Part shown: positions 4,886-22,662 of the stretch, piece by piece | Layout of the letters: each line of letters begins with the position of its first letter | Numbering within the stretch: the stretch's first letter is position 1 | Source of the DNA: Oricola indica | GTDB taxonomy: Bacteria > Pseudomonadota > Alphaproteobacteria > Rhizobiales > Rhizobiaceae | Direction: 5' to 3' | NCBI RefSeq assembly: GCF_019966595.1 | Contig: NZ_JAINFJ010000002.1 | Span: forward strand, 21,330-85,329 | DNA: 64,000 bases | Translations under genes and position numbers: made by a program | The notes under the pieces: generated by a model | The model's database searches: none | What the model saw: only the letters and a program-made list of their open reading frames with translations | What the model was told of the DNA's origin: nothing

Positions 4886-6322
4886 CTATAACGCGAATTC
4901 GGAAACGAATTTCGTGCGCTGAAAGGCTTCCAACCCTTCCAGGCCGCTCTCCGAGCCGAAGCCGGATTCGTTGACGCCGCCGAAAGGCGTTTCGGGGGTC
5001 GAGATGACCATGTGGTTCACGCCAACCATTCCGGCATTCAACCGGGATTCGGTCTTTTGCGCGAGGGCGGAGCTGCGGGTGAAGCAGAACGAGGCCAATC
5101 CATAGGGAAGCGCATTGGCGCGATCGATGACCTCATCCACATCCGAAAAGCGCATCAGCGGCGCGATCGGGCCGAACGGCTCTTCGGTGAGGATGCGCGC
5201 ATCGTCACTCAGATCGGTCAGCACTGTCGGTTCGAAGAAATAGCCCCGGTTTGCGATCCGGCGTCCGCCAAGAGCAACCGTCGCGCCCTTGGATTTGGCG
5301 TCCTCGACAAAGTCCTCCATCACGCCAAGCCGGCGCTCGGCGATCATCGGCCCCATCTGCGTGCCGTCTTCCAAACCGTTTCCGACAACCAGCGACTTCG
5401 CTTGCGCAACGAAATCATCGACAAATTTTCCGAAGAGCTTGTCATGGACAAAGAAGCGGGTCGGCGAGGTGCAGACCTGACCGGCGTTGCGGAACTTGGC
5501 CGCCACCAGCGTCTTCACCGCATGATCGAGATCCGCATCCTCGTGGACGATCACAGGCGCGTGGCCGCCGAGTTCCATTGTGCTGCGCTTCAGCGTTTCC
5601 GCTGCACGGCGCTGAAGCAGCTTTCCGACCGCTGTCGAGCCGGTAAGCGTGAGTTTCTTGAAAACAGGCGATGCCAGAAGCGTTTCCGAAACGTGATCCG
5701 GCTCACCGAAAACCACATTCAGGACACCGTCCGGCACGCCTGCCTCCTGGAAGCAACGCGCCATCGCAATGGCCGTACCGGGCGTTTCTTCCGCCGGCTT
5801 GACGACGATGGAGCAACCGGCCCCCAGGGCTCCGGCGATTTTGCGGATGACATTGCTTGCAGGGAAATTCCAGGCGGCAAAAGCGGCAACCGGCCCCACA
5901 GGCTCCTTGAGAACCATCTGGCGAACGTTCGGCATGCGAGCCGGAACAATGCGGCCATAGGCGCGCTTGCCTTCTTCGGCATACCAGCGCGTGGCATCTG
6001 CCGAAAACTGGACTTCCGGTACGGCTTCAGCGAGCGGCTTGCCGTTTTCGATGGTCAAGGTCCGGCCGATGGCTTCCTTGCGCTCCTCGATCAGGGCGGC
6101 AGCCTTCATCATGATCGCATAGCGCTCGTTTGCCGTCTTGTTCTTCCAGACTTCGAAGCCGCGCTCGGCCGCCTCGATTGCCTCGCTCAGATCGTCGTCG
6201 CTGCAAAGCGGGACCTGACCGATCACATCCTCGTTCGCCGGATTGACGAGATCACGGGTGCGTCCATCGCTCGCCTGTCGCCATTTGCCATTGATCAGCA
6301 GTTCCAATTTTTCCTGATACAT
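4886..6322 (-). CDS. NAD(P)-dependent aldehyde dehydrogenase (succinate/2-oxoglutarate semialdehyde dehydrogenase-like)
   Basis: A 478-residue ALDH-superfamily enzyme of normal length. The catalytic Glu is E250 in MELGGHAP and the nucleophile C284 in NAGQVCTSPTRF; the cofactor-contact stretch WNFPASNVIRK and the C-terminal FGGVNESGFG loop are present. It is the last gene of the ten-gene minus-strand run and starts 42 bp after the upstream epimerase gene ends. In hydroxyproline catabolism the last step is oxidation of 2-oxoglutarate semialdehyde, and this gene or the second ALDH of the cluster could do it. The semialdehyde substrate is inferred from context. Confidence 0.88.
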   Translation of the reverse strand: MYQEKLELLINGKWRQASDGRTRDLVNPANEDVIGQVPLCSDDDLSEAIEAAERGFEVWKNKTANERYAIMMKAAALIEERKEAIGRTLTIENGKPLAEAVPEVQFSADATRWYAEEGKRAYGRIVPARMPNVRQMVLKEPVGPVAAFAAWNFPASNVIRKIAGALGAGCSIVVKPAEETPGTAIAMARCFQEAGVPDGVLNVVFGEPDHVSETLLASPVFKKLTLTGSTAVGKLLQRRAAETLKRSTMELGGHAPVIVHEDADLDHAVKTLVAAKFRNAGQVCTSPTRFFVHDKLFGKFVDDFVAQAKSLVVGNGLEDGTQMGPMIAERRLGVMEDFVEDAKSKGATVALGGRRIANRGYFFEPTVLTDLSDDARILTEEPFGPIAPLMRFSDVDEVIDRANALPYGLASFCFTRSSALAQKTESRLNAGMVGVNHMVISTPETPFGGVNESGFGSESGLEGLEAFQRTKFVSEFAL

Positions 6323-6364: not shown

Positions 6365-7372
6365 TCACGCGCATAGGAAACCGTCCTGAAGCGGATCGTT
6401 TTCTCCGAGGATGAAAAAGTGTGTGCCCGTGACGTGCGCCATGCCTTCGATACGGGGCTGGTAGAGAGTTGGGGCCGAGGATGACGGTGACGGTTCGGGC
6501 CGGGCAGACGCGGCGAAGTCGATATCCAGAATGTTGCGCATTCTGACGCGTTCGCCGGGCTTGATCTCCCCGTCCTCCAGCAATTGCGCCAGACGTGCCG
6601 AGCTTCCCGTTCCACAGGGCGAACGGTCGAACTTGTTGGACGCCAAAACGACCAACTGGCGCGAAACGATACCGGCTGCATCGCTTTGCGTGTCGTAAAA
6701 GAGCACGCTGTGGACAGGCTCAACGGCACCATCGATCGCGCCGTTTTTTATACGGGTGTTGATGTCCGTCTTGATGGAGGACCCGATGGAAAGCGCATTC
6801 TGTACGCCATCGGGCTTCAGGGAGACGCCCACTTCGCTCGCCTTCACCAAGACATACCAGTTGCCGCCATAGGCGATGTCGCATTCATGGTTTTCTCCCG
6901 ACAGGGAGAAAGGAACGCGTCGTGCCGCTAGGTAAGCTGGTACGTTCTCAAACTCGACACCGACCAACCGGTCGCCCTCGTAACGGGCGTGCACCGTGAT
7001 CACGCCTGCGGGAACTTCGAGGGTGAAGCTGGCGTGTCCTTGCGCATCCGGCTTCAGCTTGCCCAGATAATCGAGTGTCGCGGCGAGACCGATCGTGGCG
7101 TGGCCGCACATCGGCAGGTAATTGTAGCTGCCCATGAAGAACGCGCCGTGATCGGCGATATCGCTTTCGAACAGCACCGCACCGACCATTGCGGAATGGC
7201 CGCGCGGCTCGTGCAGAAGCAGTTTGCGGACATCATCGTGATGCTGCTCGAACCAGACGCACTTTTCTTGCGCGGTCCGGCCTTCGAGCATCGGCACGCC
7301 GGACATGATGACCCGCGTCGGATGGCCAGCCGTGTGACTGTCGATCGTCCGGATTTCGTGTTTGTGGGCCAC
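6365..7372 (-). CDS. Proline racemase-family protein, probable hydroxyproline-type 2-epimerase (copy 1)
   Basis: A 335-residue proline racemase/4-hydroxyproline epimerase family member. Both catalytic cysteines are present, C89 in the MCGH motif and C253 in DRSPCGTG, so it should be a racemase/epimerase rather than a trans-3-hydroxyproline dehydratase, in which the second Cys is Thr. DSHTAGHPTR at the N-terminus is the family signature. The start is a GTG at 7372, 10 bp after the GMC gene's stop. One of two intact family members in this operon; the same fold also occurs in the regulator at 14933. Which imino acid it acts on cannot be told from sequence alone. Confidence 0.9.
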   Translation of the reverse strand: MAHKHEIRTIDSHTAGHPTRVIMSGVPMLEGRTAQEKCVWFEQHHDDVRKLLLHEPRGHSAMVGAVLFESDIADHGAFFMGSYNYLPMCGHATIGLAATLDYLGKLKPDAQGHASFTLEVPAGVITVHARYEGDRLVGVEFENVPAYLAARRVPFSLSGENHECDIAYGGNWYVLVKASEVGVSLKPDGVQNALSIGSSIKTDINTRIKNGAIDGAVEPVHSVLFYDTQSDAAGIVSRQLVVLASNKFDRSPCGTGSSARLAQLLEDGEIKPGERVRMRNILDIDFAASARPEPSPSSSAPTLYQPRIEGMAHVTGTHFFILGENDPLQDGFLCA

Positions 7373-7381
7373 AGGGACTAC

Positions 7382-9082
7382 TCAGTTCCCGGCCTTGATG
7401 GCATCGGCGATCTTCTCGCCCGCCATCACGGTCGTCAGCATCGTGTTGCCGCTGATGACGAAGGGCATGATCGAGGCATCGACCACGCGCAGGCCATCCA
7501 CACCGATAACCCTGCCGTTATTGTCCACGACGGCGTTCGGGTCGTCCCTGTCTCCCATCTTGCAGGTGCCGCTGGCGTGCCAGCTGCCGCACGCATTGTC
7601 GATGATCCATGAGCGCAGCATGTTCGGGGAGTTCTGCAATCCTGCGATATCGACATCGGGAACGATGACGTTTTCAATCAGCAGCCGACGGAATATCGAT
7701 CCCATCTGCATGATGCCGGCCGCAATCAGCGTCAGGAACCAGTTCATTGAACTGACGGCCCCGAGTTTTCGAACGCGCTCCGAAAACGTTGCGGGGAAGA
7801 TCTCACCGACAGCTGACTTCATCTGCGGGTCGGCCATGATCTTGAACAGCCGCTGCATCCCGTCTTCGAGGCGCCTGAGATCGCGCTCATCGGTCAGCTG
7901 CCTGAAATTCACATGGGGCCCTGTCGACGGGTCACTGTCTTTCAGACGCACATATCCGGTGGAATACGGCCGGTTCACGCAAACGAGGATCGACGCGAGC
8001 CGTCGTCCGAGCGGATGCCAGGCTGCGCGGTTGGAGGCCAGGATGAACATGTCACCCGGCGTGGTTTCCGGCATACCGGATGTGTAGCGATAACCCATCT
8101 GGATATGCCGCCGCATCGTCGCTGGGAGGCGCGATTTTACGGGTAGGTAAGCTGCCAGCGCCACCATCGGGTGGTCCTGGAGGTTCTGTCCCGTACCGGG
8201 CCGATCGGCCCGCACGGGAATTCCGAGTTCCTTGAGGTGCTCGGCCGGGCCAATGCCGGCGCGCATCAACATCGCGGGCGACTGAAGCGCGCCAGCCGAC
8301 AAAATGACCTCTTTGGCGTGAAGCGTCCTCTCGCCGGACGGTCCTGCGACCTCGACTCCGCATGCGCGATTGCCCTCGAACAGGATCTTGCGCATGTCGG
8401 TCGAGCCAAGAACAGTCAGGTTCGGCCGGTTGCGAACCTCGTTGGTCAAATATGCCCTTGCCGTCGAAATCCGCTTTCCGTCGACATTGTTGGTCGTCAT
8501 CGGAAAATAGCCATCGTCCCAACAGCCATTGTGGTCGCGGATGTTGGTCTGACCCTGTTTCTCGAGAACGTTTGCCGTTGCTTTCGAAAAGGGCGACCAG
8601 TCCTTTTCCGGGATACGGCGCAATTTCATCGGCCCGCTATCGCCGTGGACATCGCTCGGGCCGAAATCCAGATCGTTCTCCAGCTTCTTGAAATAGGGAA
8701 GCACGTTTTCCCAGTTCCAGCCGGTCGCGCCTTGCTCGGCCCAGGAATCGTAATCCCAAGGCAGACCCCGGAACGCGAACTGGCCGTTGATGGCCGTACC
8801 GCCCCCGATGACCTTCGCCTGTTCGTAGCGACGCGGAGGCTCGTTTGCTGCCTGCTGATCGTTGAGATGAACCTGGATGTTCTGCCAGTGGTAATGGCGA
8901 TTGAAGTAAGCAACGATCGGATAGGCGTCGAGAATGTCGTCCGGCTCTTCGCCAGGCTTCATGTCAGGGCCAGCCTCGATCAACGCCACCTGGCGGCTGC
9001 TGTCTTCGGACAACCGGTTTGCAAGAACCGCGCCGGCGGCTCCGCCGCCGACAATGATGTAGTCAAAATGATCAGTTTTCAT
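7382..9082 (-). CDS. GMC-family FAD-dependent oxidoreductase (choline dehydrogenase-like)
   Basis: A 566-residue GMC oxidoreductase. The start is the ATG at 9082, directly before the FAD-binding motif YIIVGGGAAGAVLANRL; a longer upstream frame lies inside the preceding gene. Family motifs are GGGTAINGQ, AGALQSPAMLMRAGIGP, and the C-terminal SWHASGTCKMG and SGNTMLTT, which carry the His and Asn of the active site. It begins 4 bp after the aldehyde dehydrogenase stop. GMC enzymes oxidise alcohols to aldehydes or ketones. Canonical hydroxyproline operons carry a D-amino-acid oxidase/dehydrogenase instead, so this operon probably handles a variant substrate with an alcohol group. Confidence 0.9.
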   Translation of the reverse strand: MKTDHFDYIIVGGGAAGAVLANRLSEDSSRQVALIEAGPDMKPGEEPDDILDAYPIVAYFNRHYHWQNIQVHLNDQQAANEPPRRYEQAKVIGGGTAINGQFAFRGLPWDYDSWAEQGATGWNWENVLPYFKKLENDLDFGPSDVHGDSGPMKLRRIPEKDWSPFSKATANVLEKQGQTNIRDHNGCWDDGYFPMTTNNVDGKRISTARAYLTNEVRNRPNLTVLGSTDMRKILFEGNRACGVEVAGPSGERTLHAKEVILSAGALQSPAMLMRAGIGPAEHLKELGIPVRADRPGTGQNLQDHPMVALAAYLPVKSRLPATMRRHIQMGYRYTSGMPETTPGDMFILASNRAAWHPLGRRLASILVCVNRPYSTGYVRLKDSDPSTGPHVNFRQLTDERDLRRLEDGMQRLFKIMADPQMKSAVGEIFPATFSERVRKLGAVSSMNWFLTLIAAGIMQMGSIFRRLLIENVIVPDVDIAGLQNSPNMLRSWIIDNACGSWHASGTCKMGDRDDPNAVVDNNGRVIGVDGLRVVDASIMPFVISGNTMLTTVMAGEKIADAIKAGN

Positions 9083-9086
9083 GTGA

Positions 9087-10559
9087 CTAGCCGTGATTGA
9101 CCCAAACGGTTTTGAAACGCAGGAAGCTTTCGAGTCCTGCGCGGCCCATTTCCTTGCCGAAGCCCGATCCGTTGAAGCCGCCTTGCGGTGTGGAGAAATC
9201 CGGTTGACGGCCATGCGCGTTGACCCAGACAGTCCCCGCCTCGATCCTTCCCGGCAGTGACATCGCCTTGTTCAAATCGTCGGTATAGATGCTTGCCGCG
9301 AGGGCGTAGGAGGGATGGTTCGCCATGGCGATCCCCTCTTCCTCGTCGTCATACTCGTAGACCGAGAGGACAGGACCGAAGAATTCCTCGGTGAACCCGA
9401 CAGACGTGTCGGGCACATTGCGAAGGATCGTCGGCTCGTAGTAGGCGCCGGCATTCTGGGATGCGACGCGGCTTCCGCCGATGATGGCTTCCGCGCCGTC
9501 CGAAAGCGTTTGCCGCATCAGATCGTCGATGCGTTTTGCCTGTTTTTCAGAGATGATCGGCGGAAGCGTGTTTCCAACCTCCCAGGTTGGACCCGCTCGC
9601 CGCTCGCCGGCGATTTTCGCAACTTTTTCGATGAGTTCATCGCGAAGTCCGGTCGGCGTGATCAGTCTGGTGCCGGCTGTACAGACCTGACCGGAGTTGG
9701 CCAGAAAACCGTTGGCGATATTCAAGGCGACCGCATCGACATCACGGATATCCTTGAGAACCAGCTGCGGTGACTTGCCGCCAAGCTCCAGCGTCAGCGG
9801 CTTGGTACCGGTGGCAGCCGCATCGGCCATGACCTTGGCACCGGTTGCCGATGACCCGGTAAAGGTGATCTTGCGGACGAGCGGATGGCGCACGAGCTGC
9901 GAACCGGTTTGGCCGGCGCCCTGGATGACATTGAAGAGACCGGCCGGAAGCCCCGCTTCGATGGCGAGTTCCGCAATCGCCAATGCCGAGAACGGTGTCA
10001 TTTCCGACGGCTTGAGAACGACCGCGTTGCCCACGGCCAGCGCCGGAGCAGACTTCCAGATCGCATTGATTGCGGGAAAGTTGAACGGTGCAATCGACGC
10101 CACCACGCCGTAAGGCTCAGGCCGCGCCATCGCGGTGGTACCGGACTTGCCGGCCAGCAATTGCCCTTCGACCTTGTCGGCCCATTCGGCGAAATAACGA
10201 AGCGCACCGCTGGCGCGCACAAGATCGCGGTTGACGAGATCCTCGACCGGCCGGGTCGACGAGGCCGCTTCGATCTTTGCGATCCGAATACGATCACGAT
10301 CGAGCAAATCGGCCCATCGCTTCAGGACCTCTGCTCGCTCCAGAGGAGAGGCTTCCGGCCAGCCGGTGCTTCGGAACGCGGTGTCGGCAGAACGCACAGC
10401 CCGGTCCACCGTGTCTTCATCCGCAACCGACATCTGCGCGGAGCCGTTGCCGTCCGAGGGACGATACACCGGCATTTTATTATCAGAATGGACCCGCTCA
10501 CCATTAATGAGGTGCGCGCCGACAAGCTCAACGCTTGAAGGGTCAAATGATAAGCTCAT
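9087..10559 (-). CDS. Aldehyde dehydrogenase family protein (second copy)
   Basis: A 490-residue ALDH with E258 in TLELGGKSP and C293 in NSGQVCTAGTR, plus APFNFPAINAIWK and the C-terminal FNGSGFGKEMG loop. I chose the ATG at 10559 because an AAGGAG sequence sits five bases upstream; an ATG 24 bp further upstream overlaps the epimerase gene and lacks such a site. It lies directly before the GMC oxidoreductase gene, so oxidation of the aldehyde made by that enzyme is a reasonable guess. Confidence 0.88.
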   Translation of the reverse strand: MSLSFDPSSVELVGAHLINGERVHSDNKMPVYRPSDGNGSAQMSVADEDTVDRAVRSADTAFRSTGWPEASPLERAEVLKRWADLLDRDRIRIAKIEAASSTRPVEDLVNRDLVRASGALRYFAEWADKVEGQLLAGKSGTTAMARPEPYGVVASIAPFNFPAINAIWKSAPALAVGNAVVLKPSEMTPFSALAIAELAIEAGLPAGLFNVIQGAGQTGSQLVRHPLVRKITFTGSSATGAKVMADAAATGTKPLTLELGGKSPQLVLKDIRDVDAVALNIANGFLANSGQVCTAGTRLITPTGLRDELIEKVAKIAGERRAGPTWEVGNTLPPIISEKQAKRIDDLMRQTLSDGAEAIIGGSRVASQNAGAYYEPTILRNVPDTSVGFTEEFFGPVLSVYEYDDEEEGIAMANHPSYALAASIYTDDLNKAMSLPGRIEAGTVWVNAHGRQPDFSTPQGGFNGSGFGKEMGRAGLESFLRFKTVWVNHG

Positions 10560-10579
10560 GATAACTCCTTGCGATCCGC

Positions 10580-11587
10580 TCAAACGCCGGTCAGGCGAAA
10601 GCCATTCGGGAACGGATCATTTGGATCGAGGAAAAAGTTGAATGTGCCGGTGAGATAGGCGGATCCCGTCACCGTGCAGGTGATCGCCGGGAGGTCACCC
10701 ACCGTCGTTTCTCCGGTAACTGTTCCGGTGAAAACCGTGTCGAGTATGCCGGAGTGACGGAACCGATCACCTGGCTTCAGTTCGCCACGCGCAGCCAGCA
10801 TCGCCATTCTCGATGCAGTGCCGGTTCCACAGGGCGACCGGTCGATCACGGTCGGCGGGCAGATGACGGCATTCTTGCCGTCACATGTCTCGCCGTCGCC
10901 GTCCTGGATGATCTCGATCTGGTAAATCTCATTGATGTGCGACAGCGTCGGATGCTGGACCGGATGATCCTTGAGGCCATCGCGCAGCTCCGATGCGGCG
11001 CCGACGATTTCCCACGCACGCTCCGGCGAGATTTCGAGGCCGAGGTCACTTGCCTTGACGATCAGATAGAAGTCGCCGCCGTAAGCAATATCGGCCCGCA
11101 CTTTGCCGAAGCTCTTCGTCTCCACGAGGATGTTTTCCTTGTAGAGAAAGCTGGCCGGCATCTCGAGCGTGACGGAAACCGCGCGGCCACCCTCCACCTG
11201 AAGCCGGGCGGGCACGACACCCGCAGGTGTGTCGAGCCGGACGAGAACTTCTCCGTCCTTTGCGTCGACATAGCCCGCTTCGACCGCGATCGTCGCGACA
11301 GCCATCGCGCAGTGTCCACACATCGGCGGGTAGGTATCCGGTTCCAGGATGATCATGCCGATGTCCGCGTCTTCGGAGCACGCTTCCGTCAGCACCGCGG
11401 CGGGCATGTTGAAACTGCCGCGCGGCTCGAACAAAACCAGCTGCCGCAGCCAGTCGCGCGTCATCAGATCGGCGCGCTTTTCAACCATCGTCTTGCCGCG
11501 GATCGGGCCAAATCCGGACGTGATCAGCCGCAGCGGACAACCCGCCGTATGCGAGTCGACGCCCTGAATGATACGGGAACTGCGCAT
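10580..11587 (-). CDS. Proline racemase-family protein, probable hydroxyproline-type 2-epimerase (copy 2)
   Basis: A 335-residue family member with both active-site cysteines (C90 in PPMCGH, C253 in DRSPCGTG) and the N-terminal DSHTAGCPLR signature. It is clearly diverged from copy 1, with many substitutions outside the motifs, so the two probably have different substrates or act at different steps. The ATG overlaps the TGA of the DapA-family gene by one base, which indicates translational coupling. Confidence 0.9.
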   Translation of the reverse strand: MRSSRIIQGVDSHTAGCPLRLITSGFGPIRGKTMVEKRADLMTRDWLRQLVLFEPRGSFNMPAAVLTEACSEDADIGMIILEPDTYPPMCGHCAMAVATIAVEAGYVDAKDGEVLVRLDTPAGVVPARLQVEGGRAVSVTLEMPASFLYKENILVETKSFGKVRADIAYGGDFYLIVKASDLGLEISPERAWEIVGAASELRDGLKDHPVQHPTLSHINEIYQIEIIQDGDGETCDGKNAVICPPTVIDRSPCGTGTASRMAMLAARGELKPGDRFRHSGILDTVFTGTVTGETTVGDLPAITCTVTGSAYLTGTFNFFLDPNDPFPNGFRLTGV

Positions 11588-12504
11588 CAGGCGTGTTCTC
11601 CGGCTTGCTGGATCGTCGCGGCGACGTTGTTTTCGGCGAGGATCGTCTCGACCTTCGCCATCTGGTCAGCGGTGAACGGCAATAGCGGCTCGCGGGGCAG
11701 GCCGGCACTTTGGCCGAGCGTGTTCATCACCGCCTTGATGCCGGCGTAGTAGCTGCCCTGCTTGAAGCAGGCGTAGATGGCAAAGAGCGCCGGCTCTAGG
11801 CGATCGATCGTCGCCTGATCATTTGCGGCACAGGCATCGAAATACGTACGGACCAGTCGTCCGGACAGCTGGTGCGCCATGGCGACGACGCCGACGGCTC
11901 CAACGCTCAGGGCCGGACGGATCATCGTCTCGTAACCGACAAAGACACTGAGCCTGTCGCCGAGCCGGCGCGCCAATTCGCTGACCTGAACGATATCGCC
12001 CGAACTGTCCTTGATGGCGGCAACTGTCGGCAGCTCCGCAAGCTCGCTCACGAGTTGCACGTCAAGCCCGACGCCTGCCCTGCGGGGTGAATTGTAAAGC
12101 ATGACAGGCAGGCCGCTGGCAGAGCACAGCTGCTTGAAATAGTGCAGCGTCTCACGTCGGTCCGGCATAGCATAGAGCGGCGGCATGGCGAGGACACCAT
12201 CAAGGCCGAGCTTTTCCGATGTGCGTGCGAGTTCCATCGCATTGGCCGGGAGAAGGTCCGAGACACCGGCGATAACGGGCACGCGCCCATTCGCGAATTT
12301 GGCGGTCTGCCCGAGCAGTTCGGCGCGCTCCGCCATAGTCAAGGCGTAGAACTCTCCGGTGCTTCCGCAGGCGATGAGGCCGTCCGCACCGTTTTCGATG
12401 TTCGTTTCGACCTGTTTTTCATAGGTGGCGAAATCGATCTTACCGTCCGTATCAAAAGGGGTGATGAGGACGCTGTGGATTCCGGACCATTTCGGCGTGT
12501 GCAT
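11587..12504 (-). CDS. DapA/N-acetylneuraminate lyase-family aldolase or deaminase
   Basis: A 305-residue class I aldolase of the DHDPS family. GSTGEFYAL near the N-terminus, the Tyr in LYNSPRR and the Schiff-base Lys in AAIKDSSGD are all visible. In hydroxyproline degradation a DapA-family enzyme (pyrroline-4-hydroxy-2-carboxylate deaminase) makes 2-oxoglutarate semialdehyde. Its position between the transporter and the epimerase suits that role, but other 2-oxo-acid aldolase activities are equally compatible with the sequence. Confidence 0.88.
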   Translation of the reverse strand: MHTPKWSGIHSVLITPFDTDGKIDFATYEKQVETNIENGADGLIACGSTGEFYALTMAERAELLGQTAKFANGRVPVIAGVSDLLPANAMELARTSEKLGLDGVLAMPPLYAMPDRRETLHYFKQLCSASGLPVMLYNSPRRAGVGLDVQLVSELAELPTVAAIKDSSGDIVQVSELARRLGDRLSVFVGYETMIRPALSVGAVGVVAMAHQLSGRLVRTYFDACAANDQATIDRLEPALFAIYACFKQGSYYAGIKAVMNTLGQSAGLPREPLLPFTADQMAKVETILAENNVAATIQQAGEHA

Positions 12505-12524: not shown

Positions 12525-13343
12525 TTAGCTGACGAACGGCTTCATGAGCTGTGCCGTCTGGTGAAAGCGGTTTACGAATCCCTTGACCCGGTCATTGGGC
12601 GGATTCATCAGGATTTCGTGCGGGGCGCCCTCCGCACAGATCGTCCCCTGATCGAGGAAGACTGTGCGTTTTGCGACTTCCAGCGCGAAACCAAGTTCGT
12701 GCGTGACGACGATCATCGTCATCCCCTCTTTCGCGAGGTCGATCATCGTGTTGAGGACTTCGCCAACGAGTTCCGGATCAAGCGCCGAAGTGGGCTCGTC
12801 GAAAAGCATGACCTCCGGCTCCATGTTGAGAGCGCGGGCGATCGAAACCCTTTGTTTCTGGCCGCCTGAAAGGTTGTCGGGCCGCCGGTCGGCATATTCC
12901 GCCATGCCAACCTTCTCCAGAAGGGACATGGCGCGGTCCCGGTTGGTCTTCTCCGCCTCTTTCTTGACGGTCCGAGGCCCTTCCATGACGTTGGCAAGAA
13001 CGGTCATGTGCGGGAACAGATTGAACTGCTGGAAGACCATCCCGATGTGACTGCGGATGGCGTTGGTCTTGGCGGACGACAGCTTGAGGACGTCCTTTCC
13101 GGAGTCATGTTGAAAGAACGGCTCACCGTTGAGCGAGATGCGCCCGTGATTGGGATGAGCGAGCAGGTTGAGGCAACGCAGGAGTGTTGTCTTACCGGAG
13201 CCGCTGGATCCGATGAGTGCCACGACGTCTCCGCGCCCGACCGTAAGATCAAGCCCCTTGAGGACCTTCGACTCGCCGAAGGACAGATGAAGATCTTCAA
13301 CCGCTATGACGGCGTCGTCGGTTTTTGTGTTGTCGTCACGCAT
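12525..13343 (-). CDS. Polar amino-acid ABC transporter ATP-binding protein
   Basis: A 272-residue ATPase of the HisP/GlnQ class. Walker [10 protein letters not shown], signature LSGGQKQR, Walker [15 protein letters not shown] and the His switch VTHE are intact. The ATG overlaps the TAA of the permease gene by one base. It energises uptake together with the permease at 13343-13993 and the binding protein at 14058-14900. Confidence 0.92.
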
Positions 13344-13993
13344 TATCTTGGCCCTTTGTCCTCGAGGCGTCGCGCGATGTAGGTGAGCGGGACCAGTACG
13401 ATCAGGAAGATCACGGCGACTGCGGTGTAGGTCTCAAGCGGACGATACGTGAACGAGGCTATGTAATCGGCCTGATAGAGAAGGTCCGGCACGGTGATGA
13501 CCGACAGAAGTGTCGTGTTCTTGAGCTGAATGATCATCTGCCCCGCAAGCGGCGGAATCATCCGACGGAGCGCCTGCGGCAGGATGATGCGAGTCAGTTT
13601 TTGCCGATAAGACATACCGAGCGCGACAGCGGCGTCGCTCTGTCCCGGATCGATTGACTGAATGCCGGCCCGGAATATCTCTGCGAAATACGCGGCTCCA
13701 TAGAGGCTCAATGCGAGAATGCCGGCGGATTCCTTGCTGATGTTGATACCCATGAAGATCGGCAGGGCGTAGTAGGCCCACAACAACCAGACCAGAAGCG
13801 GGATATTCCGGAAAAACTCGACGAATAATCGTCCGACGAGGACAGTTACCCGAGCTGACGTTAACTGCATCAATGCGACGATCAGACCAATCGCGAGCCC
13901 TAGGGCCGAGGTGATCACGGTGTACTTGATGGTGATCCACAACCCCATGAGAAGAAGATGGGAATTTTGCTCAATGACGGACCAATCAAACAT
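13343..13993 (-). CDS. Polar amino-acid ABC transporter permease
   Basis: A 216-residue membrane protein of the HisM/GlnP class. It has about five hydrophobic segments, the first around [13 protein letters not shown], and an EAA-type cytoplasmic loop ([20 protein letters not shown]) that contacts the ATPase. Only one permease gene is present, so a homodimer is likely. Confidence 0.9.
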
Positions 13994-14057
13994 GATGGCT
14001 TTCCGATTTCAGTTTTAGCTGCCGACACTGACATGAAGCAGTGTCGGCATGTGTTGA

Positions 14058-14900
14058 TCAGAAGCTGAAGTCGCCCGGCAGGACCGACATATCGAGGCCT
14101 GCGTCTTCGAACGACTTGGCGAGCTTGCCCTGTGCAAGGCCAAGCGAGCGCTGCTGTGACGTCCAGTTTTCGAGCCAGTTGATCCAACCCGCGTTACCGG
14201 CTTCACGTCGCACGCCGATCACCGCCGTGTTGGTCAGCGCAGGCGTGGGAACGAACACATCGCCTTCAACCTCTGGCGCAACCTGGATCGCATCAAAGCT
14301 CGCCAGGAGCATCGCGTCGGCGCGACCGGAGTTGATTTCGAGGACGCCGAGAGGACGCGTACCGACAACGATGATTTCCGCCTTCGGTGTCAGAGCTTCC
14401 GCGACCACCTGCATGGTGCTGCCCTTCTGGACGGCAAGGCGGACGGACGGATCGTTGAGTTCAGCCCAGCTCGTTTTTTCGAAGCCCTTTTTGGCAACGA
14501 TTGTCCACGGTCCGTAGAAAAGCGGGGTTGTCGTGTAATCGACCACGAGCCCGCGCTGCGGGTTCGGATTCAGGCCGATTGCGATATCAACCTTCTGCGA
14601 CTGGAAATCAGCCGCAAGATTGCCCCACGTCGTCTCAACGAACTCAAGGTCAACGCCGAGGATGTCAGCGATTTCCTCGCCCCACTCAACGTAAAAACCG
14701 CTCCATTCGCCGGTTTGCGGATCCTTGATGTAGCTTGGCTCCTCGCCGGTGATGACGGGAAACTTCAGAACGCCAGAATCGCGAATCCTGTCGAGTACCA
14801 GTGAGGGATCTTCTGCGTGAGCAGGTTGAAGTGTGGCCGCGGCCACCATGGCGAATGCGCCGAACGCAACTGCCAAGGATTTCAACTTTTTGATTAGCAT
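14058..14900 (-). CDS. Amino-acid ABC transporter periplasmic binding protein (family 3)
   Basis: A 280-residue secreted binding protein. An N-terminal signal peptide ends at PAHA-EDPS; the mature part has the family-3 pattern LDRIRDSGVLKF, GFYVEWGEEIADILG, and VDIAIGLNPNPQR. An AAGGAGG ribosome site lies upstream of the ATG. It is the first transport gene after the regulator. The ligand is probably the proline-like substrate of the operon. Confidence 0.9.
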   Translation of the reverse strand: MLIKKLKSLAVAFGAFAMVAAATLQPAHAEDPSLVLDRIRDSGVLKFPVITGEEPSYIKDPQTGEWSGFYVEWGEEIADILGVDLEFVETTWGNLAADFQSQKVDIAIGLNPNPQRGLVVDYTTTPLFYGPWTIVAKKGFEKTSWAELNDPSVRLAVQKGSTMQVVAEALTPKAEIIVVGTRPLGVLEINSGRADAMLLASFDAIQVAPEVEGDVFVPTPALTNTAVIGVRREAGNAGWINWLENWTSQQRSLGLAQGKLAKSFEDAGLDMSVLPGDFSF

Positions 14901-14932
14901 TTACCTGTGCCTCCTTTTGAAGGGTTTTTGGT

Positions 14933-16825
14933 TCAAGTCCCGAGGAAACCGCGCTTCAGGGGGTCTTCCGGCTCAACGATGAGCGTGGAAACGCCGTTGA
15001 GATGCGCACGCCCCGAGATGTTCGGGACGCATACGAGGCGCCCATCGGTCGCCTTCGCAATGCTGATGATTTCGCCGCTGAGGCGGCCGCCAAAGATACT
15101 TTCGGCCTCGATCTTGTGACCGGTATCCAGCGTGCCGCGCGTCGCTTCCAGCGCCATGCAGGCGGACAGGCCTGTCACGCCGGGCGAGCGGTCGTAGCGA
15201 TGCCGGTCGATGGCAAGAAAGAGACGCCGCGTGCCCTCGTCCGTTTTCCTGAACAACAGGACGTTGTCGATCGGCGGATGCGATGAGACCGCCTTCGCGA
15301 TGTAGGCCTGCTTCAGCGCAGCGCCCAGCGAAAGGATATCATCGAGATTTTCCGAATTGAGGTCGATGTCCGCCTGATCGCAGTCAATGAGCAACTGGCA
15401 CGAACCGCCACCGACAAGTGCGCCCTCGAAGGTTCTGCCGTCATGCTCGATCTCGATACCGTCCTGCAGCACAAACGTACCCGGCATTTCGACGTCGATC
15501 TCATCGCGTGTGCGTCGTAGCTTCACCGCGACTGTGGCGCCGGGCATTTCGATGGTGAAATCCGTGCGCCCTTCCAGCCGGTTCAGCGCCGACAGCGCCT
15601 TCGCATAACCGAAGATCGCATGGCCGCACAAAGACGGATAACCATAGGACGTTATGAAAAACGCGCCGAAATCCGCAGTCTGAGACGCGAAGGGAATTAA
15701 CCCGAATGAGCCCGTGTGGCCGCGCGGTTCCTGCAGCAGAAGGTTGCGCAGATGGTCATATTTTTCGCGAAATGCTTCCGCCTTTTCAGCGGCCGTCTCG
15801 CCATCCAGCCCCTCGAGCGCTTCGATGAGAATGCGTGTCGGATGGCCGGCGGTGTGGGTCTCCATGACCCGGTAGGTTTCGCACCCCTCCTGCAACTGCA
15901 GATCAAGCGCACCCTCTCCGAGGCCGTCGCTGTGACTGGTGCCAAGCTCCAGCCGGCGCCCGCCACCCCGGAACTGCATTGCCGAAGCGCGCGCGCTGTC
16001 CGTATTGACCCACAGAACTACAGCCTTCCCGGCGCCAGGGTTACGCCAGCGGTGTTCTGTGGAGCTGCTGAAATAGGCGCTGTCACCGGAACGAAGGAGA
16101 ACCGGATCGCGAGCGCCCAGCGTGACCTCCAACTCACCCGAGAGCACATGGAGAAGCTCTTCACCATCGTGCGAGTAGAATCCGTCGCTCTCGCGGCCTG
16201 ACTCGATCGTCCAGAGCTCGACGTCCATCATGCGCTCTGCGACGGTCACCTGCTCGATGGATACACCCGGCCCGAATGTGCCGACGATGCGCCCGCCGCC
16301 TTTCCTGACGAATGGCAGGTTGTCGTTGCTCGTTCCGCCCAGCAGCTCGGCCAGCGACTTGCCGAAAACATCGGCAACCGCGCTTAGCCGCGCTGGCGAA
16401 AGGAATGCCGCGCCGCGTTCGAACATGCTGAGATGCGAAACCGTGATGTCGGTCTTGACGGACAGATCCCTCAGCGACATGCGCGCGAGCTTTCTCATCT
16501 CGCGCACCTTCGCACCGATCTTGTTGTAATCTATCGGGAGGCGCTGGACCTTGCCTTCGTCAGCGTCATCCGCCTTCGGAAGCGGATCGGATGAGATTTT
16601 CTTGCGTATTGCAGAGAGGCTTTGCCCCTCAATCCGCCGGAGCTGTTCAATCCTGCGAATGCGATCGATGTCTTCCGATGAGAACGAACGATGTCCACTT
16701 TCGGATTTGTGCGGCTGAACCAGGCCGAGACTTTCCCATGACCTGAGCGTCGAAACCGAGACGCCGCCCATCTTGGCCGCATGGCCAATCGAAAAGGGGC
16801 GCCGTTGGTTCACTGGATCAGACAT
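14933..16825 (-). CDS. Four-domain regulator: MerR HTH + XRE HTH + cupin + degenerate proline racemase domain
   Basis: A 630-residue protein with an unusual domain chain. Residues 8-78 form a MerR-type HTH (FSIGHAAKMGGVSVSTLRSW). Residues 100-165 form an XRE HTH (MRKLARMSLRDLSVKTDITV). Residues 190-285 form a cupin (SHDGEELLHVLSGE, later STEHRW). Residues 315-628 are a complete proline-racemase fold (ETHTAGHPTR; C400 in SLCGH). The second catalytic Cys is lost: the normal DRSPCGTG is DRSPGVTG, with Gly549 in place of Cys. Racemase activity by the two-cysteine mechanism is therefore not expected, and the domain may serve as ligand sensor. The ATG at 16825 follows a TTG that could be read as an alternative start. 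First gene of the catabolic run; only 32 bp separate it from the binding-protein gene. The frame is intact, so the fusion is not an artefact of a frameshift visible here. Confidence 0.9.
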   Translation of the reverse strand: MSDPVNQRRPFSIGHAAKMGGVSVSTLRSWESLGLVQPHKSESGHRSFSSEDIDRIRRIEQLRRIEGQSLSAIRKKISSDPLPKADDADEGKVQRLPIDYNKIGAKVREMRKLARMSLRDLSVKTDITVSHLSMFERGAAFLSPARLSAVADVFGKSLAELLGGTSNDNLPFVRKGGGRIVGTFGPGVSIEQVTVAERMMDVELWTIESGRESDGFYSHDGEELLHVLSGELEVTLGARDPVLLRSGDSAYFSSSTEHRWRNPGAGKAVVLWVNTDSARASAMQFRGGGRRLELGTSHSDGLGEGALDLQLQEGCETYRVMETHTAGHPTRILIEALEGLDGETAAEKAEAFREKYDHLRNLLLQEPRGHTGSFGLIPFASQTADFGAFFITSYGYPSLCGHAIFGYAKALSALNRLEGRTDFTIEMPGATVAVKLRRTRDEIDVEMPGTFVLQDGIEIEHDGRTFEGALVGGGSCQLLIDCDQADIDLNSENLDDILSLGAALKQAYIAKAVSSHPPIDNVLLFRKTDEGTRRLFLAIDRHRYDRSPGVTGLSACMALEATRGTLDTGHKIEAESIFGGRLSGEIISIAKATDGRLVCVPNISGRAHLNGVSTLIVEPEDPLKRGFLGT

Positions 16826-17170
16826 CAAACCTACATATCATCCGTAGATATATTGAATTTTGCAGATCGTATGTTGATATTTTGAACGAGTCAAGGGTAG
16901 GAGGTACCAGCTTTTGACGCGCAGGCTTCCGGCGTGGCGGCATCGGCAATGCCGGCGCATCGGCCACCGGTGCGATTGGAGGGGCCTTAAAGCTCCCTAA
17001 GGGAAGCCGATGGTATGCACCGCCGACCCCGGGCTTCTCGCGATGGATGAAAGTGTCTCGTCAGGCGGCGATATGAAGATTGAACCGCCCGCGCGGTTTG
17101 CCGGAAGCTGGCTGGAGGGGGGCCGTCGGACAAACTCCAACCAGCCTCCGCTTGCCGAAAACGCCCCGCC
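16826..17170. other. Promoter-containing intergenic region before the catabolic operon
   Basis: About 345 bp without a supported gene. Next to the regulator start, 16831-16848 holds a CTAC/GTAG inverted repeat with a 10-base spacer, a possible MerR-type operator. AT-rich sequence to about 16890 probably contains the minus-strand promoter. The rest adjoins an IS6-family remnant and may be insertion-sequence DNA. Confidence 0.45.
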
Positions 17171-17641
17171 CTATGCCGCAAGAAACTGGCGCCACTCGTT
17201 GGGAGCGACGCTGCGGTTGTGCTTGAACTTCTGTCGGCCAGGGAGACGGCATTTTTTGGCTGAAATGAATGTAGACCAGGCCATGAATGGCGGCGCGCTT
17301 CTACACACTTGTTACGCGCCGAAATCCCGGTATCGCCCGTTCTCGTCTTCTTAACGGAAGGGCTGTTCTCTGTTCTGTGGGTGTTCCATCGGCCGCCGGT
17401 TTCACGGCGGCTTGCGTCGATGCCGGTTTACCGCATCGCGGCGCCAGAAGGCTTCAGCTTGTCGGTGACGATTACCTCTGGCTTCAGCTGCTTTCGCGGC
17501 AATTCCAATGCCGTTTCTGCATCTCGGCGCCTAGTGACAACAGCATCAAGCACCGCACCGTCATGGACGACTGCCCGCGAAAGGCAGGCGGATGACTTCG
17601 CGCGGCGTCTTGAAATAGCGAAACGGATTGATCCTGCTCAT
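17171..17641 (-). pseudogene. IS6-family transposase remnant with internal deletions
   Basis: The minus strand from the ATG at 17641 starts MSRINPFRYFKTPREVIRL, the typical start of an IS6-family transposase. After a deletion and frame change it continues HDGAVLDAVVTRRRDAETAL and LKPEVIVTDKLKPSGAAM, the region around the second Asp of the DDE triad, interrupted by stops. It closes with KFKHNRSVAPNEWRQFLAA and TAG at 17173-17171. An intact element encodes about 230-240 residues; here about 155 codons remain in several frames. It separates the amino-acid operon from the rhodanese island. Confidence 0.85.
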
Positions 17642-17750
17642 GCCCAGTCGCGACGAAACCGCCCTCGACTGCTCAAGACCGGTTTCTTCTGACAAGGCAG
17701 TCTCGACGCAAGCATCGCCTGCATTCGGATTTCACGGCGACGCCAAGCTG

Positions 17751-18545
17751 CTATTTTCGGTCTGAGCGTATCGCTTTGGAAAGCCCTTTGGCGCGTATTG
17801 CGGCGAACTCTTCGGTCTCATGGCTGAGCTGATGAAGCTCGAAATGAGCTTCCAAGGCCGAACGCATGCCCTGCACGTCGAAGGTGCGATTCAGGGAACG
17901 CTTCAGGAGGCGCAGGGCAAAGGGCGGTGCCGCCGCGATCTTGGCGGCCTCCGCAAGAGCGGCGGCATCGAGGTTGTCTCGCGGAACTACGCTGTTGACC
18001 ATCCCGATCCTAAGCGCGTCTTCGGCCTTCAGGCGACCACCGGTGAAAAGGAGATGTTTTGCCTGGCGCAAGCCCATCACCCAGGGGTGAATCAACACCT
18101 CGATCGAAGCGGTTGCGAGCGTGTGGCAAACGGGATCGGCGAAGAAGGCGTCGTCGGATGCGATTACCAGGTCGCACATATTGGCCATCATGAAGCCGCC
18201 GGCGACACAGGCCCCCTGAACCTGCGCGATCGTCGGCTTCGGGCTGTCCCAGATGCGGATGCAGTAGTCGAAATATCGCAGGGATTCATAGGCCCAGCGC
18301 TCCTCGACCGTGAAATTCGCCCGCTTCGCCTGCGCCTCCTTGAGGTCATGCCCCGCCGAGAAGTGCTTCCCCTTGCCCGCTATGATGATGACGCGGATAT
18401 CGTCGTCGGCTTCGGCTCGGGTGAAGGCCGCATCCATTTCGTCGAGAAGAAGCTGGCTCTCCGCGTTGCTCGCTTCGGGACGGTTATGGGAGATGCGCGC
18501 GACGTTATCGAGCTTCTCGTAGGTAATGCATTCGTAGTCCGCCAT
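17751..18545 (-). CDS. Crotonase-fold (enoyl-CoA hydratase/isomerase family) protein lacking the usual catalytic glutamates
   Basis: A 264-residue crotonase-family protein. The oxyanion-hole segments GKGKHFSAGHDL and VQGACVAGGFMM are present. In true hydratases Glu follows the GGG(C/x) turn and a second Glu follows a Gly/Gln-Pro; here these positions read GGFMMANMCD and FFADPVCHT, with no Glu. Hydratase activity is therefore doubtful. A decarboxylase, isomerase or thioester hydrolase variant is possible. It lies about 100 bp after the GST gene in the same direction and probably shares its promoter with the palindrome at 19399. Confidence 0.85.
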   Translation of the reverse strand: MADYECITYEKLDNVARISHNRPEASNAESQLLLDEMDAAFTRAEADDDIRVIIIAGKGKHFSAGHDLKEAQAKRANFTVEERWAYESLRYFDYCIRIWDSPKPTIAQVQGACVAGGFMMANMCDLVIASDDAFFADPVCHTLATASIEVLIHPWVMGLRQAKHLLFTGGRLKAEDALRIGMVNSVVPRDNLDAAALAEAAKIAAAPPFALRLLKRSLNRTFDVQGMRSALEAHFELHQLSHETEEFAAIRAKGLSKAIRSDRK

Positions 18546-19669: not shown

Positions 19670-20473
19670 ATGCCAGAAACCATGAAGCGCGGCGAAAAAG
19701 CCGGAAATTCGGCGGGCAAGAAAGCCGCTCCGCGCAAGGGCGATATACCGCCGACAAAGGAACGTATCCTTGACGCCGCCGAACGACTATTTGTCCGATA
19801 CGGATACAAGGGCGTGTCCATGCGCCTCCTCACCCGGGAGAGCAAGGTCAATCTGGGCGCGGTACATTACCATTTCGGCGGGATGGAAAGCGTTCTCCGC
19901 GCGCTGTTTGAAAAGCACATCGTACCGCTCAATCAGGAACGTCACGAGCTTCTGGACAAGTGCCTGGCGGAGGAGGCCGACACTTATACGAGTGTTCGGA
20001 ATTTGATCGAGGCCTATATCCGTCCTTCGCTGCGCTATCCAGCCAGTTCCAAGCCGCCCAAGAGCCTGTTCGCGAGGCTGCAGGCGCAGCTTTCCGTCGA
20101 CCCCTCGCCCGAAGTCCGACGCGTCATCGACCGGGGATATGACGAGATCGGCACCAGGTTCGCCCGGATGCTGCGGGCGCATTGCCCTCACCTGGCGGAC
20201 CATGAATTCTTCTGGCGATTGAACTGCTTGTACGGAACAATGTTCTACACCCAGGCCGATACCGGACGGACACAGAAGATCGCCGAACTCATGGGCGTCG
20301 AATTCGACCAGACCGACCGGGCGGATGACATCACGCTGATCGCCGGTTTCCTCGCTTCGGGATTTCTCGCGCCGGCCGTCGACACAAGCACATCGCCCGC
20401 CGCGACGGCAAAATCTCAATCCGGCAAGTCTTCGTCCGGCAAGTCTTCGTCCGGCAACGCAAAGGGCAAATAG
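19670..20473 (+). CDS. TetR-family regulator, PsrA-like
   Basis: A 267-residue regulator. The HTH spans about residues 28-75 (TKERILDAAERLF, VNLGAVHYHFGG). The C-terminal domain pattern (LFARLQAQLS, EFFWRLNCLYGTMFY) resembles PsrA-type TetR proteins, which sense fatty acids or acyl-CoA. PsrA is reported to bind CAAAC/GTTTG half-sites, and the island's palindromes are built from these halves with no spacer. The last ~25 residues are a low-complexity Ser/Gly/Lys tail (SGKSSSGKSSSGN) made by a 15-bp repeat. Its 3' end overlaps the convergent rhodanese gene by 58 bp. Diverges from the GST operon. Control of the island is inference. Confidence 0.86.
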   Translation: MPETMKRGEKAGNSAGKKAAPRKGDIPPTKERILDAAERLFVRYGYKGVSMRLLTRESKVNLGAVHYHFGGMESVLRALFEKHIVPLNQERHELLDKCLAEEADTYTSVRNLIEAYIRPSLRYPASSKPPKSLFARLQAQLSVDPSPEVRRVIDRGYDEIGTRFARMLRAHCPHLADHEFFWRLNCLYGTMFYTQADTGRTQKIAELMGVEFDQTDRADDITLIAGFLASGFLAPAVDTSTSPAATAKSQSGKSSSGKSSSGNAKGK

Positions 20474-22053
20474 TCCTCCGTTCGCGCCGTGTTGACGAGC
20501 GCGACCTCCCAATCGATGTAACCCTTCATGGCCGCCAGAAGATCCGCCGACCCGTCATAGATCGAACGGCGCATGTCTTGCGCGGGATGCAGTAAAGAGC
20601 GCGCGCCGGCCTCCAGCCCGAACCCGGCTTCGCACCAAGCCCGGTTGCCGCCGCGCAGCACTGCGACCGGTCCGGCAAAAAGCTCGGAGACCTCGGGTTT
20701 TGCCAGCATCGCGCGGACGCCGTCTTCACTGGTGAGCACGACAAGGCGGGGCCGGCCGAGCGTTTCAATCGCCTCGGCCGAAAGCTTCGACCGGATTGCG
20801 AAATGCGCACCCGGTACATGGCCCTTCTCATAGTCGAGGCTGGATGAGAGATCGATAACGGCGGCTTCCCTGCCGGCGAGCATTCGATCCAGCGCTTGCG
20901 GCTCCACCAGCTCGGCCGGATCGAACCCCGCCGGACATCCATTATCCTTGTCCGGTTCGTCCACAAGCGGCGGCTGAGGGCAGCGGTCCAGCGGGATCCA
21001 GGCGATGTCCCGCCATCCCATGCGCCACAACCAATATGCGGCGAAGGCGGCCCGGTCGCCCAGATCGTCGAAAAGAACGACTCTGGCGTTGCGGACGGCC
21101 ATGAAACTGTCAGTTTCCTGCACCAGTTGCCCGGCCGGCGCATGGCGTGCCAGCGGATGATGCCCGGTATCGAATTCGGCCGCGGAGCGCACATCGAAGA
21201 AATAGGTCGCCCGGCTTTGGGAATGCGCGATCAGTTCCGCCAGACCGGTGTCGTCGATTTCCCGCGCCCCGCTCGCGCCATAGAGGCGGTCGAGTGCGAG
21301 ACGCAGACCCGAGCCGGCCGGCTGAGGCTGCTCATGGGAAGCCTGTTCCGGGCCGGGGACCGTTTCCCGCCCCGATAATCGCCAGCCGATCGTCCCGTTC
21401 TCGAGCACCGAAACCGGATGGGGCAGCCCCGCCGCGACCACGGTCTGCGCAGCGATGATGCCGCGCGTTCGCCCGCCACAATGCAGGACGACCGACTGCC
21501 GGGCATCGGCGGCAATATCCGGCAAGGAACGCAGAAGCTCGCCCGCCGGAATGTTTATCGAGCCGGGCAAGGTCGATCGGCGGTATTCGTCGGGCGAGCG
21601 GACATCGACGACGATCACGCCTTCGCTCTCCTGTTGCGCGCCGGCGAGTTGTTCGGCTGTCACCGACTTCAGGCCGGCATCGTGCTCGACTACTTCGCCA
21701 AACAGCTTGCTGAAAGCGTGGATCCCGGTGAATGCGGAATAGCCGGCACCGACCCAGCCCGACAGCCCGCCGTCAAGAACGGAGACATCCTCATATCCGT
21801 GCGACGCCAGCTTTCGTGCCGCGCGAACGGCCAATCCGTTTTCCTCCGCCGCGTCGTCGTCCAAGACCACGACGGGCGACGCCTTGCACGGCACGAGCGC
21901 CGGGACAGCCATTTCCAGCGAACTCAACGGACAGGACGATGCCAGCAGCGCGTGGCCTTGGCAAAAATCCCACTGCTCGCGCACGTCAAGAAGGGCGATC
22001 TCCTCACCTTCCCGATAACGGCGCGCGACCTCCGGGGCCTCAATCCGCCGCAC
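20416..22053 (-). CDS. Four-domain rhodanese protein
   Basis: A 545-residue sulfurtransferase-type protein with four rhodanese repeats, roughly residues 1-105, 125-225, 260-365 and 380-480. Only the second has a cysteine active loop (C192 in LHCGGRTRG). The corresponding loops of the other domains read VVLDDDAAE, VLFDDLGD and VLTSEDGV, so they are non-catalytic. The C-terminus ends in LPDED repeats. The start overlaps the end of the cupin gene by 14 bp, so the unit dehydrogenase-cupin-rhodanese is co-transcribed. Such proteins move sulfane sulfur; a role in handling sulfur released from the cupin enzyme's product is inference. Confidence 0.87.
   Translation of the reverse strand: MRRIEAPEVARRYREGEEIALLDVREQWDFCQGHALLASSCPLSSLEMAVPALVPCKASPVVVLDDDAAEENGLAVRAARKLASHGYEDVSVLDGGLSGWVGAGYSAFTGIHAFSKLFGEVVEHDAGLKSVTAEQLAGAQQESEGVIVVDVRSPDEYRRSTLPGSINIPAGELLRSLPDIAADARQSVVLHCGGRTRGIIAAQTVVAAGLPHPVSVLENGTIGWRLSGRETVPGPEQASHEQPQPAGSGLRLALDRLYGASGAREIDDTGLAELIAHSQSRATYFFDVRSAAEFDTGHHPLARHAPAGQLVQETDSFMAVRNARVVLFDDLGDRAAFAAYWLWRMGWRDIAWIPLDRCPQPPLVDEPDKDNGCPAGFDPAELVEPQALDRMLAGREAAVIDLSSSLDYEKGHVPGAHFAIRSKLSAEAIETLGRPRLVVLTSEDGVRAMLAKPEVSELFAGPVAVLRGGNRAWCEAGFGLEAGARSLLHPAQDMRRSIYDGSADLLAAMKGYIDWEVALVNTARTEDYLPFALPDEDLPDEDLPD
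20420..20457. repeat. 15-bp tandem repeat coding on both strands
   Basis: The unit tccggcaagtcttcg occurs at 20420-20434 and 20435-20449, with a partial third copy to 20457. It lies inside the overlap of two convergent genes and gives both proteins a repetitive C-terminus: SGKSS repeats in the TetR protein and LPDED repeats in the rhodanese protein. Confidence 0.9.
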
Positions 22054-22648: not shown

Positions 22649-22662
22649 GAGGCTCCCCCCGT

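Follow-up and report, generated by a model that had tools for sequence, protein, structure and literature searches.

A MerR-XRE-cupin regulator fused to a proline racemase domain that lacks one catalytic cysteine: a probable ligand sensor at the head of a putative transporter and enzyme operon in Oricola indica

The described systems closest to the protein analysed here are the BzdR-type regulators, of which BoxR is a relative, the MocR, GabR and EnuR regulators, the unfused MerR-XRE-cupin regulators, and the enzymes of the proline racemase superfamily. The birth of regulators from the fusion of a DNA-binding domain and an enzyme is widely held and seldom addressed by experiment, and for BzdR the order of events, fusion and then loss of activity, was deduced from synthetic chimeras (PMC3602430). 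The BzdR-type regulators consist of an XRE domain and a shikimate-kinase-like sensor, that is, a helix-turn-helix (HTH) joined to what was once an enzyme and now binds a compound of the pathway (PMC3602430). MocR, GabR and EnuR combine a winged HTH with an aminotransferase of fold type I and likewise control catabolic operons through an enzyme-derived sensor; their fold is PLP-dependent with a covalent cofactor, and the passages of that account used here mention no cupin (PMC8739950). The unfused MerR-XRE-cupin regulators are about 280 residues long and annotated as "MerR family transcriptional regulator". In three plasmid neighbourhoods of Allorhizobium and Shinella (L164, L165 and L166), two of them near-identical, they adjoin a 4-aminobutyrate transaminase gene, and they may regulate GABA catabolism there.

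The window, a stretch of 64 kb from Oricola indica, contains a gene of 630 codons on the minus strand (14933..16825, ATG at 16825), whose product comprises four domains that all exceed their curated Pfam cut-offs. The MerR DNA-binding domain (residues 11-78, 16592..16795; MerR_1, E 1.8e-17) is an N-terminal HTH that scores above cut-off for both MerR_1 and MerR. It is followed by an XRE/HTH_3 DNA-binding domain (residues 107-161, 16343..16507; HTH_3, E 1.3e-11) and a cupin (residues 204-273, 16007..16216; Cupin_2, E 5.1e-16), the arrangement of the XRE-cupin (PuuR-like) regulators. The C-terminal half is a proline-racemase-superfamily (PRS) domain (residues 320-627, 14945..15868; Pro_racemase, PF05544, E 1.4e-49), which reaches 169.4 bits against a cut-off of 27 and covers positions 1-324 of the 325 in the profile. 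Pfam thus bears out the first-pass annotation, made from the sequence before any search, in which two DNA-binding domains, a cupin and a complete PRS fold were read in one frame of 630 residues. A PDB sequence search with the PRS domain returned 17 distinct sequences, most of them named PRS enzymes and two hypothetical or uncharacterised, and PRS structures occupy Foldseek ranks 1-38. The AlphaFold model has a mean pLDDT of 71.8, with low values in the linkers and parts of the N-terminal half, whereas the racemase domain is mostly at 79-94 over residues 331-610, apart from one block of 58; at a pTM of 0.53, the relative placement of the four domains is unreliable.

Compared to the BzdR-type regulators, the window protein has a PRS domain in place of the shikimate-kinase-like domain, and its enzyme fold comes after two DNA-binding domains and a cupin. 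It differs from MocR, GabR and EnuR in its enzyme fold and in its DNA-binding domains. The unfused MerR-XRE-cupin regulators share its first three domains in the same order, at 32-38% identity, but are devoid of a racemase domain. With the PRS enzymes (ProR, 4HypE, t3HypD), the window domain shares the full-length fold, the first catalytic cysteine (Cys1), the histidine and the aspartate; it differs from them in being fused to DNA-binding domains and in having Gly followed by Val at the second cysteine (Cys2), rather than the Thr of t3HypD.

The same four-domain order was found in 17 distinct full-length proteins, the one in the window included, nearly all of them in Hyphomicrobiales; they are 618-634 residues long and the frame is open in each. 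Beyond the window, 394 genomes of the family yielded one further version (G300, 58% identity), 397 genomes of the order eight more and 385 genomes of the class one more, and 299 genomes of the phylum had no full-length fusion beyond those already found. A scan of GTDB contigs gave 11 fusions, in Labrenzia, Hoeflea, Ancylobacter (five strains), a Xanthobacteraceae bacterium, Aureimonas, Hyphomicrobiales bacterium UR115 and an alphaproteobacterial MAG; its patterns were two cupin peptides, which catch only some fusions and say little on absence. Removal of five duplicates left the 17 proteins. Since the searches sampled the taxa and scored three to four candidates per genome, these counts are lower bounds. 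In the plasmid collection, 705 records matched, none with a place that covers 80% of the protein. The sharing of the frame by 16 other distinct genomes rules out an artefactual fusion, a frameshift or two genes joined by a sequencing error. No paper on the union of such a regulator with a PRS domain was found in the open-licence literature; according to the first-pass annotation, no described regulator is known to have this domain order.

The first catalytic motif, Cys400-Gly401-His402 (15620..15628, minus strand), is kept within SLCGH (residues 398-402), whereas DRSPGVTG (residues 545-552) stands in place of DRSPCGTG, as first annotated. In the segment Asp545 to Val550 (15176..15193, minus strand), Gly549 occupies the place of Cys2 and is followed by Val550. 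Alignment of position 549 showed that Cys2 is lost in 15 of the 17 fusions, 14 with DRSPGV and one, from Aureimonas, with DRSPGI; DRSPCGTG is kept in the remaining two (L058 and L059), of which L059 has MCAH where MCGH would be expected. Cys1 is present in 16 of the 17 fusions and replaced by Gly in Aureimonas, and is thus kept in 14 of the 15 proteins without Cys2. His402 and Asp545 are invariant throughout the 17. The Aureimonas fodinaquatilis regulator (L067:7959-9851) therefore lacks both catalytic cysteines (KMGNH and DRSPGI), and it heads the same gene order. Among 41 stand-alone PRS proteins, a biased sample of search hits that includes 18 orthologues of the window enzyme PRS_B (see below), the Cys2 position holds Cys in 31, Thr in nine and Gly in one, which rules out, for this sample, that Cys2 is commonly absent in related enzymes; the ten tree rows nearest to the fusions all carry Cys. 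The single Gly belongs to a stand-alone PRS with DRSPGGTG in genome G064 (L009:1492-3480, minus strand), so Gly at this position does not by itself mean a sensor. The sequence upstream of it, considered as part of another fusion, looks by eye like chance open sequence. Other PRS fusions suggested by long open frames were likewise discarded, as no DNA-binding domain was found in the seven loci scanned (six with frames of 420-645 aa and one of 402 aa).

With Cys400 present and Gly at 549, the window protein has neither the Cys/Cys nor the Ser/Cys pair of the two-base racemases and 4-hydroxyproline epimerases, nor the Thr of the trans-3-hydroxyproline dehydratases (NF045511, 134 of 540 bits). It misses the NCBIfam equivalog cut-offs, with a best score of 144.8 of 556 bits; the stand-alone PRS_B also falls below, at 289.7 of 556. 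One alternative is that the fused domain is a trigger enzyme: Cys400 would still perform one-base catalysis, as t3HypDs do with a single catalytic residue, and the reaction would serve as the signal. The retention of Cys1 in nearly all proteins without Cys2 would also be explained by such single-base chemistry, and the universal His402 and Asp545 are compatible with it; t3HypDs carry Thr for Cys2 (PMC4113996), as do the nine stand-alone PRS proteins mentioned above. However, position 549 is Gly rather than Thr, and the Aureimonas protein is without Cys1 too, yet has the same domains and gene order. Moreover, the Pro_racemase score drops from 251 and 249 bits in the two Cys-Cys fusions to 169 in the window protein and 138 in Aureimonas, compared to 262 and 348 for the two stand-alone enzymes of the window. 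We therefore hold a trigger enzyme to be unlikely, though worth keeping in mind.

A tree of 58 PRS domains places all 17 fused ones in a clade of their own (support 100/99), within which the two Cys-Cys members (99/95) stand opposite the 15 proteins without Cys2 (100/100). Cys2 is present in each of the five stand-alone rows closest to the fusions, and these rows join the fusions at 96/79; the nearest stand-alone PRS genes adjoin the same transporter genes and keep both cysteines. In five unfused operons (L038, L049, L050, L051 and L161), the stand-alone PRS gene lies immediately upstream of the gene for the substrate-binding protein (SBP), which is the place of the fused gene, and in Microvirga (L160) and Mesorhizobium (L162) it lies immediately downstream. 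The regulator halves likewise group in a single clade (100/99) when analysed with 37 unfused MerR-XRE-cupin proteins, which make up the opposite side of the branch carrying the fused halves, and this tree repeats the first split of Cys-Cys members against the rest (97/92 and 97/89). By their PRS_B sequences too, the Cys-Cys operons are the earliest of the fused operons to split off, at moderate support (92/80 and 92/89); the unfused operons of G645 and Microvirga lie outside them (81/92 and 84/93). As both halves form single clades, a single fusion event is indicated, and the simplest history would be one fusion of an intact enzyme, followed by loss of Cys2 and, in one line, of Cys1; the position of the Aureimonas row is unsure, as both trees contain long branches, that of Aureimonas among them. 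For BzdR the missing link is synthetic, whereas the PRS fusions keep a both-cysteine stage in nature, within the same operon.

The fused gene is followed on the minus strand by genes for an amino-acid ABC transporter SBP (14058..14900; SBP_bac_3), an ABC permease (13343..13993), an ABC ATPase (12525..13343), a DHDPS-superfamily enzyme (11587..12504), the stand-alone PRS enzyme PRS_B (10580..11587), an aldehyde dehydrogenase (ALDH, 9087..10583), a GMC oxidoreductase (7382..9214), a second stand-alone PRS enzyme, PRS_A (6365..7372), and a second aldehyde dehydrogenase (4886..6322). Judged from strand and spacing, we infer that these genes form one transcript. In tblastn searches with the window proteins, the order regulator-SBP-permease-ATPase-DHDPS-PRS_B-ALDH-GMC recurs on one strand in all 17 fused loci, where the SBP gene is always next to the regulator, and a partial or whole match to PRS_A follows the GMC gene in 16. 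The exception is the Cys-Cys genome G478 (L168), in which PRS_A was not found within the 15.5 kb read; in this seemingly PRS_A-less operon, the intact fused domain might do the work of PRS_A. The first-pass annotation had placed two active epimerases in the operon: two PRS genes on the same strand are indeed there, each with MCGH and DRSPCGTG, and from these motifs both products are predicted to be active. Among the 397 genomes of the order, the nine with a PRS_B of at least 80% identity, O. indica included, are the same nine that have the fusion, and one genome with a 74% PRS_B is without it. The G645 operon has matches to DHDPS, PRS_B and ALDH, and none to the SBP, permease or fusion within the 19.5 kb read.

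The DHDPS, ALDH and PRS families are those of hydroxyproline pathways (PMC4113996). The operon resembles these pathways in its enzyme families, but it includes a GMC oxidoreductase; no D-amino-acid oxidase was identified in it. Around the operon, about 850 bp (16895-17750) separate its promoter from the upstream enoyl-CoA hydratase gene, with listed frames of 102-127 aa on the plus strand only. Elsewhere in the window, one minus-strand frame (20416-22053) contains four rhodanese stretches, and the adjoining frame (22040-22744) is cupin-like by eye, with no Pfam match at E 0.01. In Hoeflea sp. YIM 152468 (L063, the same locus as L021), a transposase-like frame, IS66-like by eye (L021:625-1275, plus strand), sits directly upstream of the fused regulator and makes recent mobility of the operon possible.

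The racemase half of the proteins without Cys2 evolves with an omega of 0.06-0.28 (Nei-Gojobori) in seven pairs, three of which are among the same three strains and one of which has a dS above 1; in the same pairs, the regulator half gives 0.02-0.14 and PRS_B 0.04-0.09. In the Cys-Cys pair, omega is near 0.30 for both halves. Since these values are well below 1, the racemase half has been constrained after the loss of Cys2, and the window protein thus joins DNA-binding domains to an enzyme domain that selection has kept although one catalytic residue is lost, as in an enzyme-derived sensor regulator. That the fusion is a pseudogene drifting without function is scarcely credible: in six of the seven pairs the racemase half changes faster than the regulator half, and one member has lost both cysteines, but the omega values contradict such drift and the frame stays open at nearly constant length in 17 genomes. 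The same excess of change in the racemase half could suit a domain that is a structural or oligomerisation appendage only, with the cupin as the sensor, as presumed for the unfused MerR-XRE-cupin regulators. These are common in the family, so that the three-domain core suffices as a regulator, and cupin residues His219, Glu223 and His258 are identical in all 17 fusions. By contrast, an appendage explains poorly the invariant His402 and Asp545, the low omega of the racemase half and the distribution of identical positions among the 15 proteins without Cys2, where the N-terminal racemase part (46 of 125) is near the cupin (33 of 79), compared to 2 of 90 in the middle (residues 441-530) and 14 of 97 in the C-terminal part. 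We consider it very doubtful that the domain is an appendage only.

In 4HypE, two helices point their N-termini at each other and the substrate carboxylate bridges the backbone amides there; the prolyl nitrogen is coordinated by Asp232 and His90 (PMC4113996). His402 and Asp545 of the window protein match the residues that hold the substrate amine in known enzymes, and in the AlphaFold model helices begin at 402 and 549, the sites of the two carboxylate-holding ends. Loss of the Cys2 side chain would accordingly drop a catalytic base and spare the backbone contacts and the amine ligands. With this predicted pocket geometry as the main structural ground, the racemase domain would bind a ligand and not racemise it. 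Since 10 of the 15 proteins without Cys2 have Gly, Ala or Leu in place of Thr551 in the carboxylate-side motif, and conservation is low across residues 441-530, the ligand may be something other than proline.

Upstream of the fused gene, a sigma-70-like promoter, TTGACT-N17-TACGAT, lies at 16866..16894 on the minus strand, and two copies of a tandem direct repeat of about 21 bp form a candidate operator, copy 1 over the spacer and the -10 element (16866..16886) and copy 2 starting 29 bp further downstream (16837..16857). Promoter and repeats (16837-16894) fall within 16826-16900, the stretch proposed for binding in the first-pass annotation. The promoter was the only such site in a scan of 14000-17800; shuffles of the region give a mean of 0.9 sites, so the case for it rests on conservation. 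The 17 orthologues can be aligned over a block near TTGACNNNTTCAANANATCNACATAC in front of the fused gene, some of them with deviations, and not over the sequence preceding this block. TTGAC is present in this block in all 17, and the spacer is 17 bp in 16 and, by eye, 16 bp in Aureimonas. An exact match to the motif TTCAANANATCNRCATA is present in 26 of the 172 loci fetched; each of the 26 has the fused gene, whole or in part, and no exact match was seen in fetched loci without the fusion. These 26 loci represent 13 of the 17 distinct fusions, and the other four deviate from the motif. Allowing up to three mismatches, the promoter pattern has a single occurrence in the genome of O. indica, which fits a local autoregulator. 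The two repeat copies are the only matches with at most three mismatches to their joint pattern in the 64 kb (expected 0.01), a pattern written from these same two copies. Tested against mononucleotide shuffles, the tandem repeat stands out at P<0.05 in 11 of the 17 orthologues, which are not all independent, and fails to do so in six. An inverted repeat between the -10 element and the start codon, TCTACA-N7-TGTAGA, was rejected as the operator in favour of the tandem direct repeat: two Ancylobacter loci alone have it in perfect form, Aureimonas carries the variant TTCTAC-N9-GTAGAA, and a search of the other 14 orthologues found no perfect 6-bp arms.

Classical MerR promoters have a spacer of 19-20 bp. 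Activation by untwisting such an over-long spacer might be expected from a protein whose N-terminal domain is MerR; however, the spacer of the candidate target promoter is an ordinary 17 bp, and repeats over and downstream of the -10 element suit repression better, so that classical activation appears quite improbable and the sign of control leans towards repression.

Taken together, the single fusion, the intact-cysteine stage, purifying selection, the invariant amine-holding positions, the place at the head of the operon and the conserved promoter favour the reading that the window protein acts as an autoregulator of the operon headed by its gene, and that its racemase domain has turned into a non-racemising ligand sensor; from sequence comparison and modelling, we put its probability at roughly 0.7. 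The first-pass interpretation, a degenerate enzyme serving as a substrate sensor for the pathway of its active relatives, is thus the best supported. As far as the trees show, a MerR-XRE-cupin regulator was joined to a PRS enzyme a single time, and Cys2 was lost later in one lineage. In the proposed mechanism, the HTH domains would recognise the tandem repeats across the -10 region and the leader and keep the promoter down. The racemase domain would hold a substrate or intermediate of the operon, probably a proline- or hydroxyproline-like cyclic amino acid, through the amide groups at the two helix ends together with His402 and Asp545, and, with one of the two bases gone, would not racemise it. 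Closure of the domain on its ligand could then alter DNA binding and induce the uptake and catabolic genes, and the cupin may serve a second signal or dimerisation. A more speculative idea, and something of a long shot, is that the half-racemase is a chirality sensor: with one base removed and the other kept, it might tell or trap one enantiomer, so that the intact racemases of the operon, by shifting the D/L ratio, would set the signal that governs how strongly they are transcribed; the two Cys-Cys fusions would then be surviving bifunctional ancestors, able both to racemise and to regulate.

A PRS-based enzyme-derived sensor regulator is an addition to the kind known from BzdR and MocR/GabR, and none was found in the open-licence literature searched. 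The extant operons look like successive stages, from a stand-alone enzyme next to the transporter genes, through the Cys-Cys fusion and the one-Cys fusions, to the fusion without either cysteine. If the sensor reading is true, the proline racemase fold would join the known sensor domains, and the regulator would offer a route to the substrate of the operon.
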